Assembly: GCA_023489335.1 (NCBI GenBank)
Contig: JAMDCP010000002.1
Location: forward strand, 124,001 to 188,000
Source of the DNA: Deltaproteobacteria bacterium
GTDB lineage: Bacteria > SZUA-79 > Acidulodesulfobacterales > Acidulodesulfobacteraceae
Length of the DNA: 64,000 bases
Direction of reading: 5' to 3'
Shown here: in pieces, positions 30,382 through 60,753 of the stretch
Numbering within the stretch: position 1 is the first letter of the stretch
Layout: each line of letters starts with the position of its first letter
The notes under the pieces: generated by a model
What the model was told of the DNA's origin: nothing
What the model saw: the letters and a program-made list of their open reading frames with translations, nothing else
Database searches by the model: none
Translations under genes and position numbers: made by a program

Positions 30382-30708
30382 TTATTTTCTTTAATAATAA
30401 TTATAAGTAATAAGTTAATTTAATTATAAATGTTTCATTATAAATAATTAATAATTACATATAATATAGATATGGTAATATAGATATAGCAATATAGATA
30501 TAGAGTAATACCGATATAGAAGAATTTAAAGGGGAAAATACTTTCTAATGCAGGATTAATCAAAAATAAATCGGATACCTTTTTAGGATATTGCTTGCGT
30601 TTATAAAACCAACGGTTTTATGCAGGCAAAGATGGGCGGGGTATTTATAAAAAAAATAAAAAAAAAGATATCTGATTTATTTCATTTAATTGGAAAAAAT
30701 AAAAAGGG
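30382..30708. other. AT-rich intergenic region without a gene
   Basis: No convincing coding sequence on either strand. It holds simple ATATAG-type repeats near 30460-30510 and one isolated palindromic element at 30589-30640; otherwise I see nothing in it. Confidence 0.6.
30589..30640 (+). repeat. Solitary relative of the tRNA-Gln tail hairpin
   Basis: Hairpin ATAAAACC-AAC-GGTTTTAT flanked by TTGC and GGCAAAGATG. The layout and the GGCAAAGATG end match the hairpin of the tRNA-Gln tail element (TATAAAAGCC-GAA-GGCTTTTATA then GGCAAAGATG at about 21760-21772), but no tRNA end is attached. Confidence 0.6.
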
Positions 30709-30993
30709 GGCGGAGAGAGAGGGATGAGCGTCCTTCGGACGCTAAAAGAAACGAACTTCCCCTTGCGGGCTTCGCCCTTACCGGGGGTTCGAACCCCTCT
30801 CTTACTTATAATAACGAATCTTATGTATAATATTACTTTTTTTAAATAACTGGCGGAGAGAGAGGGATGAGCGTCCTTCGGACGCTAAAAGAAACGAACT
30901 TCCCCTTGCGGGCTTCGCCCTTACCGGGGGTTCGAACCCCTCTCTTACTTATAATAACGAATCTTATGTATAATATTACTTTTTTTAAATAAC
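30709..30993 (-). repeat. Two tandem tail elements (143 nt each) behind tRNA-Ser(UGA)
   Basis: Two units, identical in my reading, with period 143 directly after the tRNA-Ser CCA on the minus strand. Each unit, read in tRNA sense, has an AT-rich spacer of about 45 nt, then AGAGAGGGGTTCGAACCCCC (which is the reverse complement of a tRNA-Ser T-arm), a GGGCGAAGCCC hairpin, an AGCGTCC-GAA-GGACGCT hairpin and a final copy of the tRNA 3-prime end ATCCCTCTCTCTCCGCCA. The outer AGAGAGGG and CCCTCTCT ends can pair. The core is shared with the tail of tRNA-Ser(CGA). Confidence 0.85.
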
Positions 30994-31082
<89 letters not shown>

Positions 31083-46312: not shown

Positions 46313-47308
46313 ATGCATAATCATGACGATGAAAAGAAATTAAATAAATTTAACGCGAGTAGCGAAGATGAAGATTATAATTTTGAAGACGGAGGTGGAT
46401 GCGGCTGCGGGGATAGCGAGGAACACGGTTCTTCGTGCGGCTGCGGGGATGAAAGAGAAGAGGAATCTTCCTGCGGATGTTCTTCGGAAAATAATAGCGG
46501 TAAACCCAATAAAAATCCGTTCGAGGAACGGGCCCCTATTTTCGGCGTAAAAAATATTATTGCCGTTGCAAGCGGTAAAGGCGGCGTAGGAAAATCCACA
46601 TTTAGCGTCAACTTAGCCATCAGCTTAGCGCAGCAGGGTAAAAAAGTGGGTCTTATGGATGCAGATTTGTATGGTCCGAGTATTCCAACTATGATGGGCA
46701 TCAACAAAAGGCCCGATTTAACTTCTCAAAACAAAATAATACCTATAGAAAAATTTGGGATTAAACTTATGTCTTTAGGATTTTTAATTCCGGAAGATAC
46801 CCCCGCTATTTGGAGAGGACCTATAGTTATGCAGGTTACGACACAGTTTTTAAAAGATGTGGAATGGGGCGAAATCGATTTTCTCGTAGTCGATCTCCCT
46901 CCGGGAACAGGAGACATCCAGCTTACATTAGTCCAAACCGTCCCGATAAATTTTGCCATAGTAGTTTCCACGCCCCAGGATATTTCCCTTATAGATGCCA
47001 AAAAGGCGTTGGGTATGTTCGATAAGGTTAATGTTCCTGTTTTTGGCATAGTCGAAAATATGAGCTATTTTATATGTCCCCATTGCGATAAGCGTTCGGA
47101 TATATTTAAACATGGCGGCGCTAAAAAAACTGCCGAAAAATTAGGCGTTAATTTTCTGGGCGAGGTGCCTATAGTAGAAGAAATCTGCGAACTTTCCGAT
47201 AAAGGCGAACCTATTATGACAAAAGATATACATCCGGAGGTAAAAGCCGTATTTAATAAAATAGCGGATTCTTTAATTTTGAGATCGGAACAGCGGGTTA
47301 GTTTATAA
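46313..47308 (+). CDS. Mrp/NBP35-type iron-sulfur carrier ATPase with Cys-rich N-terminus
   Basis: P-loop ATPase of the ApbC/Mrp family that delivers iron-sulfur clusters. The deviant Walker A GKGGVGKST, MDADLYGPSIPTMMG and DLPPGTGDIQLTL are intact, and the cluster-binding CxxC appears in FICPHCDKRS. Unusually, the first 70 residues are very acidic and contain three CGCG-type motifs (GCGCGD, SCGCGD, SCGCSS). 331 residues. Sulfur-cycle anaerobes need much cluster assembly; trxA follows 75 bases downstream. Confidence 0.93.
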   Translation: MHNHDDEKKLNKFNASSEDEDYNFEDGGGCGCGDSEEHGSSCGCGDEREEESSCGCSSENNSGKPNKNPFEERAPIFGVKNIIAVASGKGGVGKSTFSVNLAISLAQQGKKVGLMDADLYGPSIPTMMGINKRPDLTSQNKIIPIEKFGIKLMSLGFLIPEDTPAIWRGPIVMQVTTQFLKDVEWGEIDFLVVDLPPGTGDIQLTLVQTVPINFAIVVSTPQDISLIDAKKALGMFDKVNVPVFGIVENMSYFICPHCDKRSDIFKHGGAKKTAEKLGVNFLGEVPIVEEICELSDKGEPIMTKDIHPEVKAVFNKIADSLILRSEQRVSL

Positions 47309-55928: not shown

Positions 55929-56020
55929 GGAGAGATGGCCGAGTCCGGTTGAAGGCGATTGACTCGAAATCAATTGTAGGCGCAAGCTTACCGGGGGTTC
56001 GAATCCCTCTCTCTCCGCCA
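55929..56020 (+). tRNA. tRNA-Ser (CGA)
   Basis: Class II tRNA of 92 nt: acceptor GGAGAGA/TCTCTCC, anticodon loop CTCGAAA (CGA), variable arm GTAGGCGCAAGCTTAC, T-arm GGGGGTTCGAATCCCTC, discriminator G and encoded CCA. Two tandem tail elements follow directly. Confidence 0.95.
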
Positions 56021-56318
56021 GTTAAAAGTAAAACAGTTAGTTTTTAATATAAAGCAGGTAAAGGCAAGTCAGAGAGGGGTTTGAACCCCCGGTAAGGGCG
56101 AAGCCCGCAAGGGGAAGTTCGAACGCTTTAAAACTTTCCGAAGGAAAGTTCATCCCTCTCTCTCCGCCAGTTAAAAGTAAAACAGTTAGTTTTTAATATA
56201 AAGCAGGTAAAGGCAAGTCAGAGAGGGGTTTGAACCCCCGGTAAGGGCGAAGCCCGCAAGGGGAAGTTCGAACGCTTTAAAACTTTCCGAAGGAAAGTTC
56301 ATCCCTCTCTCTCCGCCA
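56021..56318 (+). repeat. Two tandem tail elements (149 nt each) behind tRNA-Ser(CGA)
   Basis: Units 56021-56169 and 56170-56318 are identical in my reading; a third unit begins (about 12 nt) and then diverges. Each has an AT-rich spacer of about 50 nt, AGAGAGGGGTTTGAACCCCC (near-exact antisense of this tRNA's T-arm), a GGGCGAAGCCC hairpin, an AACTTTCC-GAA-GGAAAGTT hairpin and a closing copy of the tRNA 3-prime end (ATCCCTCTCTCTCCGCCA). The 51-nt core matches the tail elements of tRNA-Ser(UGA), on the opposite strand. Confidence 0.88.
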
Positions 56319-56357
56319 GTTAAAAGTAAACATCCCTTCTCTTTCGCTGTTTTGGAT

Positions 56358-56693
56358 ATGAAATTTAAATATGATTTGGAATATGTTTTAAAGATTACAA
56401 AATTAGATAAAGACAGAGTTGACGAATTACTGAAATATTTCGACGGACTTCCTTTACAGGCAAAACTTGAGGTATTTTACATAAGTAAAATAATTGAAGA
56501 AGACGATGAATTTGCGTTTCATCAGCACTATTTCGACAAAGAAAAATCTGCGGAATACGAATTTTCCTTATTCATTCTTGGAACCGAAAGGATATATTCC
56601 ATAGAACACAAAGATACCGAAGGTAAAAAACTTTCTCCTTACAAGCTCAATCTAATTTCAAAAATAAAAGAACTTAGGAAGCAAGATGAATGA
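56358..56693 (+). CDS. Hypothetical protein upstream of dsrN-like gene
   Basis: 111 residues, unrecognised, predicted mixed helix/strand and soluble, strongly charged (KFKYDLEYVLKITKLDKD at the start, KIKELRKQDE at the end), without Cys motifs. ATG at 56358 is the first good start; a TTG two codons upstream is possible, and neither has a clear Shine-Dalgarno. Its end overlaps the start of the CbiA-type gene by 8 bases, so it is translationally coupled to it and may be related to siroheme modification. Confidence 0.65.
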   Translation: MKFKYDLEYVLKITKLDKDRVDELLKYFDGLPLQAKLEVFYISKIIEEDDEFAFHQHYFDKEKSAEYEFSLFILGTERIYSIEHKDTEGKKLSPYKLNLISKIKELRKQDE

Positions 56694-58164
56694 TATTACC
56701 GGTAATGACAAAAAAAATAACTGCATCAACGGATTTTACATTTCTGCGGCAAAAAGAAATTCCGGCAAAACAACCATTTCTATCGCCATAACGCGGCTGC
56801 TCAGGGATAGAGGGCTTATAGTTCAACCCTTTAAAAAGGGCCCTGATTTTATAGACCCAATGTGGTTAAGCATGGCTACGGGTAAAAACTGCTATAACCT
56901 GGATTTTTATTTTATGTCTAAAAATAAAATTAAAAAGCACTTTTTAGAATATTCGCTTAATTCAGATATTAGCATCGTTGAAGGAAATCATGGGCTGCAC
57001 GACTCTTTTGACATATACGGAAAATCTTCGAATGCGGAGATGGCAAAGCTCTTGGGCATCCCTGTAATTCTTTTAATCGATGTAGGGGAGTTAAACAGGG
57101 GGGTCGTTCCGCTTATTTTAGGGTTCCAAAACTTTGATAAAGATGTAAATATAAAAGGGATAATTCTTAACAAGGTCCACAGTAAAAGGCATGAAAAAAA
57201 TTTAACCAAAGCAATTAATTATTATACCGATTTTAAGGTAGTCGGCAATGTTCCGAATGACCCCGAATTTTCCATAAAACAACGGCATCTCGGTCTTTTA
57301 TCCACGCTTTCCGCCGAAGACATCGAAAATTTTGTTTCAAATATGTCTTCTAAAATTGCAGGTTATATCGACATGGAAGGCATTATAAAGATTTCAAAAA
57401 TGGCGGGCAAACCTCACGGCGGCATTAAAAGTTTACCTATTGTATTTCAGAAAAAAAGTAATGCAAAAAATGGCAGGAATGCGGTTAAAATAGGCCTTGC
57501 TTACGATAATGCATTTAATTTTTATTATAATGAAAATATTGAAGCGCTTGAGAATTTGGGTTGCGAGATAATCAAATTTTCTCCCCTTAAAGACGCCTGC
57601 CTGCCCGATGTAGATGCCCTTTATATAGGAGGAGGCTTCCCGGAGATTTTCTGCAAGGATTTAGAGTCAAACATTAATTTAAGAAGAGATGTAAGGGAAA
57701 AGATCGAAACCGGCCTTCCGGTCTATGCCGAATGCGGCGGGCTTATGTATCTTTGCAAAAGTATTTCCTACGGCGATATTATATGCGAAATGGCCGGAGC
57801 AATAGATGCCGATGTAAAATTGACGAAAAAACCTAAGGGGCATGGCTACACCAGATTAACACCCGCCTTTTATGATAAAAATAGCCGGTCATGGTTTAAT
57901 AAGATTAAATTTATTAAAGGGCACGAGTTCCATCATTCATTTTTAGAAACACCATCGCCGGATAACATGAATTTTGCTTTTAATGTGAAAAAAGGATTTG
58001 GGGTAAACGGGGCAAGCGACGGTATTATCTATAAAAATATGGTCGCAAGCTATACGCACATATTTTCTCCTTCCGCTCCCAAATGGTTTAAAAACTGGGT
58101 GTCTTTCATCAAAGAGAATAAAAAGGAAATGAAAAAAGATTTTTTACAAATAAAAATAAAATGA
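56686..58164 (+). CDS. dsrN: CbiA/CobB-type a,c-diamide synthase, probable DsrN (siroheme amidase)
   Basis: 492-residue glutamine-dependent amidase: ATP-grasp-like P-loop domain (SAAKRNSGKTTISIAITRLL, PFKKGPDFIDPMW) and a class I glutamine amidotransferase domain with catalytic Cys in YAECGGLMYL and His in HEFHHSF. Family members amidate cobyrinic acid or, in dsr loci, siroheme (DsrN). No cobalamin genes are nearby, while dsrA starts 236 bases downstream, so I favour DsrN. Generic CbiA cannot be excluded. Confidence 0.82.
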   Translation: MNDITGNDKKNNCINGFYISAAKRNSGKTTISIAITRLLRDRGLIVQPFKKGPDFIDPMWLSMATGKNCYNLDFYFMSKNKIKKHFLEYSLNSDISIVEGNHGLHDSFDIYGKSSNAEMAKLLGIPVILLIDVGELNRGVVPLILGFQNFDKDVNIKGIILNKVHSKRHEKNLTKAINYYTDFKVVGNVPNDPEFSIKQRHLGLLSTLSAEDIENFVSNMSSKIAGYIDMEGIIKISKMAGKPHGGIKSLPIVFQKKSNAKNGRNAVKIGLAYDNAFNFYYNENIEALENLGCEIIKFSPLKDACLPDVDALYIGGGFPEIFCKDLESNINLRRDVREKIETGLPVYAECGGLMYLCKSISYGDIICEMAGAIDADVKLTKKPKGHGYTRLTPAFYDKNSRSWFNKIKFIKGHEFHHSFLETPSPDNMNFAFNVKKGFGVNGASDGIIYKNMVASYTHIFSPSAPKWFKNWVSFIKENKKEMKKDFLQIKIK

Positions 58165-58198
58165 TGTTAAATTTTTTTTATATATAAAGAATTTTTTC

Positions 58199-58228
58199 TT
58201 GACAATAGAAGCGTAAAAGTATTATAAG
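58199..58228 (+). promoter_or_regulatory. Sigma-70-like promoter of the dsr operon
   Basis: TTGACA (58199-58204), 18-base spacer, TATAAG (58223-58228). It predicts a leader of about 165 nt before dsrA. Confidence 0.65.
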
Positions 58229-58261
58229 GAAATAATACATTTAGTTCATTAACCTACAAGA

Positions 58262-58313
58262 CAAAAAGCCTCGCGTCTCAGCGTTATGCGCTTTGCAGGC
58301 GCATGCCTTTTTG
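58262..58313 (+). promoter_or_regulatory. Structured leader element upstream of dsrA
   Basis: Imperfect long stem: CAAAAAG (58262-58268) pairs with CTTTTTG (58307-58313), inner GCG/CGC pairs, and a tip AGCG/CGCT. An alternative hairpin GCGC (58288-58291)/GCGC (58299-58302) competes with it. GC-rich in an AT-rich gap. Could be an attenuator, a regulatory RNA or a palindromic repeat. Confidence 0.5.
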
Positions 58314-58400
58314 CTAGGACTTATCTTAAGTTAATTAAGTAAAATTATTTAAGTTAGCGTTTTTTAAAATGTCTTTTTAATTTTTTTTAAAGGAGGTTTT

Positions 58401-59597
58401 ATGGGTAAAAAACATGAAACTCCGCTTCTTGACGAACTAAAAAAGGGGAAGTGGATAAGTTTTGTTAAGGAAATGGAAAGGGCGGCCGAAAAGAGTGAAA
58501 GAACGGAAGACCTTTTGGGACAGGTTGAAGAATCTTACCGTGATAAAATTACCCACTGGAAACACGGAGGCATGGCAGGTGTTAAGGGATATGGCGCCGG
58601 AATGGTGGGAAGATTCTCGGAGTTTCCCGAAAAGTATCCGGGCGTTAAGGAATGCCACTCAATCAGGCTAAACCAGACATCCGGTTTTTTTTACAATTCC
58701 GATGTTCTGAGAAAATTAGCTGACATAGCAGACCAGCATGCCGGCGGACTCTTTAATTTTCACGGTTCAACGGGCGATATCCAGATATTAGGTCTTACAC
58801 AAGCCGATGCCGAAGATCTCTTTCAAAAAAGCGCGGAATTAGGATTCGACCTTGGCGGCAGCGGCTCGGATCTCCGTACCCCGTCCTGTTGTGTCGGACC
58901 TGCGAGATGCGAATTTGCAAATTATGACACGCTTCAGATATGCTATGACTTAACCCATGCTTTTCAGGATGAATTACACAGGCCGTCGTTCAATTATAAA
59001 TTTAAAATGAAATTTTCGGGATGCGCAAACGATTGCGTCGCGGCGGCATCAAGGTCGGATTTGGCATTTATCGGGACATGGCAGGATAATATAAAAATAA
59101 ATCAAAATGAAGTAAAAAATTACGTTAAAAAATTTAATGTTCAGAAATATGTATTGGATAAATGTCCGACAAAGTGCATGTGGTTCGAAGGAGAAAATCT
59201 TGTTATAGACGATTCGAACTGCGTAAAATGCATGCATTGCATAAACGAGATGCCCAGGGCTCTTAAATCGGGAGACCAGAAAGGTTTGTCGATTTTAATA
59301 GGCGCGAAAGCCCCGTTAGTTACTGGTCCGAGAATGGGCATGATGCTGATTCCTTTCTACGATGTGCATGAAGACAGCAAAAACGACTATGAATGGCTCA
59401 AAGGATTGATAAGCAATATGTGGGAATTCTGGGATGAATACGGTGTCAGCAGGGAAAGGATAGGCGAACTTATCGCAAGGGTCGGGCTTGTCACTTTCCT
59501 TGAAGGAATAGGGCTGGAGCCTACAATAGATATGGTCAAGGAACCCAGAAGCAATCCGTTTATAAAGTTTGAAGACGAAGAAGCAGGCGCAGAATAG
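58401..59597 (+). CDS. dsrA: Dissimilatory sulfite reductase alpha subunit
   Basis: Catalytic subunit of the alpha2beta2 siroheme sulfite reductase in the cytoplasm. Siroheme-[4Fe-4S] ligands are in SCCVGPARC (C164-x5-C170) and GCANDC (C208-x3-C212); a ferredoxin domain with NCVKCMHC follows. At 398 residues it is somewhat shorter than many DsrA proteins (about 420-440). A strong AAAGGAGG precedes ATG. First gene of dsrA-dsrB-dsrD-dsrL-dsrC-dsrM. Confidence 0.97.
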   Translation: MGKKHETPLLDELKKGKWISFVKEMERAAEKSERTEDLLGQVEESYRDKITHWKHGGMAGVKGYGAGMVGRFSEFPEKYPGVKECHSIRLNQTSGFFYNSDVLRKLADIADQHAGGLFNFHGSTGDIQILGLTQADAEDLFQKSAELGFDLGGSGSDLRTPSCCVGPARCEFANYDTLQICYDLTHAFQDELHRPSFNYKFKMKFSGCANDCVAAASRSDLAFIGTWQDNIKINQNEVKNYVKKFNVQKYVLDKCPTKCMWFEGENLVIDDSNCVKCMHCINEMPRALKSGDQKGLSILIGAKAPLVTGPRMGMMLIPFYDVHEDSKNDYEWLKGLISNMWEFWDEYGVSRERIGELIARVGLVTFLEGIGLEPTIDMVKEPRSNPFIKFEDEEAGAE

Positions 59598-59667
59598 CGG
59601 AACAATTATGCATTTTTTAATTTAATTTTATTAATTAAAGTTACCATATATAAATTTGGAGGTTTTT

Positions 59668-60753
59668 ATGCCGGAAGAGGTTAAAAAGAAAAGAATAACC
59701 GATGTGGGCCCTCATGATTATCATGACTATCTGTCCCCTATGATTAAAAAAAATTACGGCAAATGGGCATATCACGAGATATTAGATCCGGGTACTATGG
59801 TACATATCGCAGAAAATGGAGATAAGCTATATACGGTAAGAATGGGATCGCCGAGATTGGTTAGCAGCAGTTTTGTGCGGGATATATGCGATATGGCGGA
59901 TAAATATTGCGGAGGTTATTTAAGATTTACAACCAGAAATAATGTAGAATTTTTACTCGAAGACGAAAAAAATGTCGAACCGTTAAAAAAAGATCTTGAC
60001 AAATTAGGTTATAATGTCGGCGGCATCGGCAATATCGTTGCAAATATAGTTCATACCCAGGGCTGGGTTCACTGCCATACATCGGCAAGCGATGCGTCCG
60101 GCGTGGTAAAGTCGGTAATGGACGAACTATATGAATATTTTGTCGAAGAGAAGCTCCCTTCAAAAGTCAGAATAGCATTTGCATGTTGCTTAAATATGTG
60201 CGGGTCGGTTGCTTCGTCAGATATAGCTATACTGGGAACCCATAGAAAACCCCCGAAAATTAATCACGAAAGGCTTGTTAATCTTTGCGAAGTGCCCAGC
60301 ACTATTGCCGCATGTCCGACAAATTCTATAAGGCCGGAAATGGTCGGCGACAAGAAGTCGGTCAGGGTTAACGAGGAAACGTGCGTGTTTTGCGGGAGCT
60401 GTTATACCGTATGCCCTGCAATGCCGATAGCCGACGCCGAGAATGACGGACTTTCGATATGGGTAGGCGGAAAGGTTTCCAATGCAAGAACTAAACCCAC
60501 TTTTTCCAAGTTAGTCGTTCCTTTTATACCTAATGAGCCGCCAAGATGGGGTAAGGCAGTTCAGGCGGTAAAGACGATACTGGAAGCCTACAAAAAAGGA
60601 GCCGAGCCGGGTGAAAGAGTCATAGAATGGATAGAAAGAATCGGCTGGTCCAGGTTCTTTAAAATAACGGGATTTGAATTTACCAAATACCATGTCGATG
60701 ATTTCAGGCTTGCCGAAGCAACCATGAATTATTCGTCTCACGCAAGATTTTAA
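59668..60753 (+). CDS. dsrB: Dissimilatory sulfite reductase beta subunit
   Basis: Partner of DsrA, 361 residues. [12 protein letters not shown] and ACCLNMCGS hold the cluster ligands (C136, C174, C178), and the inserted ferredoxin domain has [17 protein letters not shown] start at ATG 59668, preceded by TTGGAGG; an in-frame TTG four codons upstream overlaps that site. Whether DsrAB is of the reductive or oxidative type needs a tree. Confidence 0.97.

Follow-up and report, generated by a model that had tools for sequence, protein, structure and literature searches.

Folded tRNA-end repeats with an rtT-like layout behind tRNA-Ser genes of an Acidulodesulfobacteraceae bacterium

The rtT repeats are known mainly from enterobacteria and their relatives, and their role is uncertain. 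At the tyrT locus of E. coli K-12, the tRNA end is followed by a spacer of ~60 nt, an antisense copy of the T-arm, GC-rich hairpins and a tRNA 3′ end with CCA, and the arrangement is present in three tandem copies. The 3′ ends of tRNA genes also serve as attachment sites for integrative elements, and tandem folded repeats make up the attC cassette arrays of integrons, where attC sites fold to rebuild the core site. The accessible portions of published reports implicate rtT in the stringent response and place RtT at Pasteurellaceae tRNA genes (PMC4986893), liken rtT to BIME-borne sequences (PMC2965389) or, as far as the available text of one article goes, mention RtT for its structure only (PMC7657543). 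Within the limited open-access literature that we covered, no such repeats are described outside enterobacteria and Pasteurellaceae.

The window, the whole 64,000-nt stretch of DNA analysed here, carries two arrays of this kind. Array 1 lies behind tRNA-Ser(UGA) (30994-31082, minus strand; ARAGORN, 59.2 bits with the Rfam tRNA model) and consists of a proximal unit (30851-30993) and a distal unit (30708-30850), each of 143 nt and on the same strand. Tandem Repeats Finder gives a period of 143, 2.1 copies and 100% matches over 30709-31011, in agreement with a preliminary description of two identical 143-nt units in tandem behind this tRNA. That description also had every unit ending in the tRNA 3′ end and CCA, which is true of the proximal unit and of the tRNA; the distal unit runs from CCGCC into CCC and lacks the CCA. 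Copies of the tRNA 3′ end lie at 30852-30868 and 30709-30725 (direct repeat D2), and antisense copies of the Ser T-arm at 30924-30945 and 30781-30802 (inverted repeats I1 and I2), all on the minus strand. The antisense T-arm proposed to open the core is indeed present, starting ~50 nt past the tRNA end, after an AT-rich spacer. Array 2, overlooked in the preliminary description, lies behind tRNA-Ser(CGA) (55929-56020, plus strand; ARAGORN) and has two units of 149 nt at 56021-56169 and 56170-56318 (plus strand; Tandem Repeats Finder). The two arrays have the same core, AAGGGCGAAGCCCGCAAGGGGAAGTTCG, and unlike spacers, and a search of the source genome (1.80 Mb, 92% complete) for this core, with up to three mismatches allowed, gives just these four units. 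A covariance model, R1, matches all four: the array 1 proximal unit scores 107.3 bits (30852-30949) with a model partly trained on that array's own unit, and the array 2 proximal unit, which is outside the training set, scores 80.6 bits.

The only coding potential of array 1 is a single 65-aa frame overlapping the array and its tRNA. With the Rfam models at gathering score, the whole window returned tRNAs only. Weak matches to mir-4484, MIR9563, mir-727, sX4 and Plastid-psbl-rps4 were rejected; the three that were aligned are the tRNA T-arm, sense or antisense. Array 2 and its tRNA stand directly 5′ of a gene run (55929-60753 in all), which starts ~30 nt 3′ of the last tRNA-end copy with a 113-aa reading frame (56352-56693, plus strand; ORF list and NCBIfam) and continues with cobB-like, dsrA-like and dsrB-like genes (NCBIfam). 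Just downstream of array 1 there is a 21-nt inverted repeat of 90% (30564-30584 and 30662-30682), and a palindrome related to the GCAGGCGTTTACAAAAGCAAAGCTTTTGTGCCTGC type occurs at 30598-30630 and in the flank of locus L067. Further short tandem repeats were found at 30462-30503 (14 nt, three copies) and 46400-46476 (36 nt, 2.1 copies; both Tandem Repeats Finder).

In the direction of the tRNA, a unit is composed of the AT-rich spacer, the antisense T-arm, hairpin 1, a split sense T-arm and the tRNA 3′ end, the split arm being a copy of the 5′ half of the T-arm followed by hairpin 2 placed in the T-loop. Each unit is flanked by two tRNA 3′ end copies, and the 3′ half of the tRNA forms with the antisense arm a 22-nt inverted repeat that is 95% complementary. 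RNA folding of both arrays predicts a three-way junction that is more stable than shuffled sequences (z −2.7 to −4.1) and is closed by pairing of the antisense T-arm with the tRNA-end copy on the tRNA-sense strand. The inverted repeat, a fold that beats shuffles and the equivalent units in 20 other genomes described below make neither chance nor faulty assembly a sufficient account of the locus. In five other loci (L070, L074, L083, L097 and L098), a second small palindromic repeat of the GCAGGCGTTTACAAAAGCAAAGCTTTTGTGCCTGC type is inserted in the unit hairpins.

The likeness to E. coli tyrT suggested in the preliminary description is sound as regards layout, since the order in K-12 is the same, and fails as regards family membership. 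Both rtT (RF00391) and the units here stand in tandem behind a tRNA, each closing with a tRNA 3′ end, and comparison with the RtT structure line shows the closing stem in both to be formed by the antisense T-arm and the tRNA-end copy. However, rtT has a tRNA-Tyr host and a different hairpin set, and K-12 has three copies where the window arrays have two each. The Rfam RtT model gave a window unit 18.8 bits (E 0.1 in 126 nt) against a gathering score of 45, and returned nothing at E ≤0.1 in 30 genomes of the phylum; R1 in turn found no match in E. coli rtT. Because each model misses the other's repeats, the units fall outside the RtT family as judged by covariance models in both directions, while sharing a layout already known from rtT.

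With up to three mismatches tolerated, a 28-nt pattern from the core matched 10 of 99 genomes, all from the family of the window, and tRNA-Ser was present at all 15 further loci that it gave. An exact core pattern matched eight stretches in genome_contigs, which had tRNA-Ser at none and were taken as chance; viral_contigs gave no match. R1, trained on seven units that match it by construction, gave 76 matches in 21 of the 30 phylum genomes; the nine genomes without a match were genus g2 (7/7), the single genome of g3, and G003. After the loci were fetched and searched again with R1 together with the window, there were 78 units at 52 loci, with one match at 32 loci, two at 15, three at 4 and four at 1, counts that include truncated matches. 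A tRNA-Ser gene lies directly upstream at 43 of the 52 and all four isoacceptors are used (TGA 16, GCT 10, CGA 9, GGA 8); of the other nine, eight are at contig ends and one (L069) is 6 kb from another array. Searching the 30 genomes for the hairpin-2 motif with no or one mismatch led back to known loci, apart from a decayed copy with no detected tRNA nearby (G006:C71); at two mismatches it found a decayed copy within a tRNA-Ser-like remnant (G018:C168), and at three mismatches it gave a few further hits. At L185 (G025) and L222 (G018), the whole tRNA-Ser(CGA) is present as tandem duplicates or decayed copies beside the array or tRNA.

The T-arm segments of the units follow the tRNA next to which they lie. 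The T-stems of tRNA-Ser fall into two classes, GAGGG (GCT, GGA) and GGGGG (TGA, CGA). Among 51 distinct units with a known tRNA (42 genome-isoacceptor combinations, orthologues included, so that P values serve as a rough guide only), the sense T-arm copy has A in all 22 units beside a GAGGG-type tRNA and G in all 29 beside a GGGGG-type tRNA, and the antisense copy reads CCTCG in 21/22 of the former and 0/29 of the latter. A Ser-TGA unit of G027 is close to a Ser-GCT unit of G022 along its full length, and the T-arm letters of each fit its own tRNA, which implies that units seem to move occasionally between tRNA-Ser genes, their T-arm parts then changing to match. Spacers from different isoacceptors are up to 85% similar with the T-arm letters switched. 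Of the spacer pairs that are at least 75% similar, 59 are within one isoacceptor and 24 across, so jumps would be rare and most units inherited. At two different tRNA-Ser genes of G025 (L078 and L079), the units end in CTCTTAAGCC in place of CTCTCCGCC, which suggests exchange between these arrays.

Two pairs of orthologous Ser-CGA sites, one empty and one filled in each (L165 of G022 and L058 of G021; L168 of G018 and L087 of G014), show where units enter. In both pairs the same flank begins right past the tRNA end, and this comparison places the insertion precisely at the tRNA 3′ end, of which the filled site has a second copy. Integrative elements that target tRNAs likewise insert at the tRNA end, duplicate it, keep the gene intact and leave a clean empty site in relatives, as in these pairs, but the units differ from them in being 143-149 nt long, with no gene and no integrase of their own, and in being folded with an antisense T-arm. 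Tandem copies within an array are often identical, array ends can carry truncated extra units, and four arrays (L059, L081, L085 and L096) combine different unit types.

The fold is under selection by the measure of covariation. In 62 distinct rows, 90% of cells are paired and double changes occur at 18 of 30 pairs; there are 141 double-change cells against 43.5 ± 5.3 in shuffled alignments (0 of 500 as high), and the covariation score is 0.238 and at most 0.086 after sliding the partners, in an alignment that was fitted to the R1 structure, which favours the score, and whose rows are related by descent. Helix 1, the outermost stem, is the weakest (76% paired), and in many units it pairs poorly at its outer end. 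In helices 2-5 there are 23 G-U cells versus 6 A-C cells, counted as dependent events in related rows, a surplus that makes the tRNA-sense strand the more probable one to fold. A strongly covarying fold that favours the tRNA-sense strand is therefore supported by the alignment.

The layout is also found outside the phylum. A pattern of a sense T-loop, 65-95 nt and an antisense T-loop matched 9 of 356 genomes outside the phylum, and its reversed control 0 of 386 searched. Around G324 it matched 9 of 57 genomes, with G324, G037 and G007 again among them; around G042 (59 genomes) it added no genome. We then considered 39 tRNA genes in 20 loci (19 pattern loci and E. coli) over a range of 250 nt. 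Exact antisense of at least 13 nt was present at 22 genes, 11-12 nt at 5, 10 nt in E. coli and none at 11, where shuffled controls reached at most 12 nt. Antisense of at least 11 nt together with a second tRNA 3′ end was found at 14 tRNA genes in 10 genomes from 9 other families, and the layout occurs at Ser, Arg, Cys, Gly and Gln tRNAs. The near-constant offset of ~60 nt is in part a product of the pattern, which forces 10 antisense letters and limits the distance; the E. coli locus, which was reached independently of the pattern, likewise has an offset of 60 nt. In G407, at least four neighbouring tRNA genes have antisense arms and at least three of them also tRNA-end copies; the match in G061 is ambiguous, with 11 nt of antisense and the tRNA-end copy absent. 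Rfam at gathering score returned tRNAs only at six loci from other families.

On balance we lean towards an rtT-class repeat, a short non-coding element built on the tRNA end that has spread by insertion and tandem copying and lies within the tRNA transcript. A first unit would arrive by insertion at a tRNA end, after which the tRNA-end repeats, 17-22 nt long, would recombine or slip and tandem copies would be gained and lost. The T-arm parts may be kept matched to the host both by copying from the tRNA, through hairpin-templated correction, and by selection on pairing; we infer that template switching performs such correction. Lying directly behind the tRNA, units would form a trailer of its transcript, to be trimmed wherever a tRNA-like end occurs. 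The preliminary description further has RNase processing at each such end releasing two small RNAs; this may happen, but the distal unit of array 1 lacks the CCA, and the hairpin-loop sequences would also allow the folded strand to act as DNA. No terminator-like sites were found on the tRNA strand; the candidate hits were all on the opposite strand, six of seven being the T-arm palindrome, and were rejected. The rarity of jumps noted above and the failure of the mobilising enzymes considered below to track the units count against this reading. We think that the repeat is mainly selfish, or neutral to mildly useful, and not a dedicated regulator.

An alternative that we regard as unlikely holds that the units are recombination sites of folded single-stranded DNA, whose duplex equals the tRNA T-arm/acceptor target, much as attC sites fold, and that a trans-acting recombinase inserts units, and sometimes gene cargo, at tRNA ends. 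The exact insertion with duplication of the tRNA end agrees with this, and so do T-arm parts that fit the host tRNA, which recombination would call for. With DNA folding parameters the tRNA strand adopts the same fold (z −2.5 and −2.8), but the opposite strand has similar energy and is nearly as stable. RNA hairpin loops prefer GNRA. The short hairpin loops of the units are C-G-closed GNA, GNYA or GNRA in 57 of 105 cases versus 13 of 485 in shuffles (45, 11 and 1 versus 8, 1 and 4, respectively), and the loop sequences fit the rule for stable DNA loops, as cited for d(cGNNAg) in PMC9969394 and described for d(GCGAAGC) in PMC10527192, better than the RNA preference. This is the strongest hint at a single-stranded DNA role, an argument weakened by the common ancestry of the units from which the loops were counted.

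Cargo bears on the same alternative. In G022, a 6.1-kb island (L139, 2235-8373) lies between two units at tRNA-Ser(TGA) and encodes two N6-type methylases, one protein of no assigned family and an AAA_13 ATPase (best PADLOC model PDC-S06). It begins right behind the tRNA end of a unit and joins the next spacer at CCGCC-A. Genes between units in this one genome, and the tandem folded repeats themselves, recall integron cassette arrays, but most units have no cassette genes. The island is, moreover, the single clean case of cargo and has inverted-repeat-like ends of its own, TTGGCGGT and ACCGCCA. In G010, a unit at tRNA-Ser(CGA) is interrupted after its first 18 nt by restriction-modification genes, among them one for a BsaWI-type nuclease, and there is no tRNA end at the right side of this set; G009 has similar reading frames behind the same tRNA. 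Separately, a stretch similar to TTGGCGGT lies right behind tRNA-Ser(CGA) in G007 (L175). No recombinase tracks the units either. Y1 transposases (REP/RAYT, IS200-type criterion) are lacking in 10 of the 21 genomes with units, several of these 10 being incomplete, and 8 of the 9 genomes without units have them; REP/BIME sequences, which are short hairpin repeats like the units, differ in that the units are bound to tRNA ends and are not tracked by these transposases. Reverse transcriptases occur in 8 of 21 unit-bearing and 5 of 9 unit-free genomes, again without tracking, and tyrosine recombinases (PF00589) occur in 30 of 30 genomes, so their count is uninformative on a link to integrons. A broader proposal places all tRNA-end repeats with this layout, those of the phylum and E. 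coli rtT alike, in a single widespread class of recombination sites formed by a folded strand, which would be the tRNA-addressed equivalent of integron cassettes; it appears to us doubtful.

That the trailer or a processed unit is a regulatory RNA, sensing or titrating tRNA-Ser or its processing enzymes with an antisense T-arm that switches partner between the tRNA and the rest of the unit, we judge distinctly improbable. The covarying sense-strand fold and the 22-nt complementarity to the tRNA itself would suit such a switch, as would the role of rtT in the stringent response implied in the accessible part of one report (PMC4986893). However, the units are patchy, lacking a match in the nine genomes noted above and missing at many orthologous tRNA-Ser genes, their copy number varies, and elsewhere the layout is at unrelated tRNAs. 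We disfavour, as very improbable, plain tandem duplication of a tRNA end followed by neutral drift, with neither selected structure nor mobility: the identity of many tandem copies and the truncated units at array ends agree with it, but the strong covariation, the comparison of empty and filled sites, the mixed arrays and the recurrence of the layout in other families speak against it. An artefact of assembly or binning, which the frequent position of repeats at contig ends (8 of 9 tRNA-less loci, among 52) might suggest, can practically be dismissed because 20 other genomes carry unit sequences of their own and finished E. coli K-12 has the same layout.

The occurrence of the rtT layout in an unrelated phylum, and elsewhere at several types of tRNA, makes a recurrent class of what was a single odd locus, a class in which a non-coding sequence keeps matching the tRNA gene that it adjoins. 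If the units were recombination sites, each would rebuild the T-arm/acceptor target of its own host in one DNA strand, to be used by a trans-acting recombinase and with defence genes as cargo. Covariation, empty sites and host-matched T-arms together provide comparative material for weighing mobile DNA against processed RNA, or a combination of the two, as the nature of these repeats.
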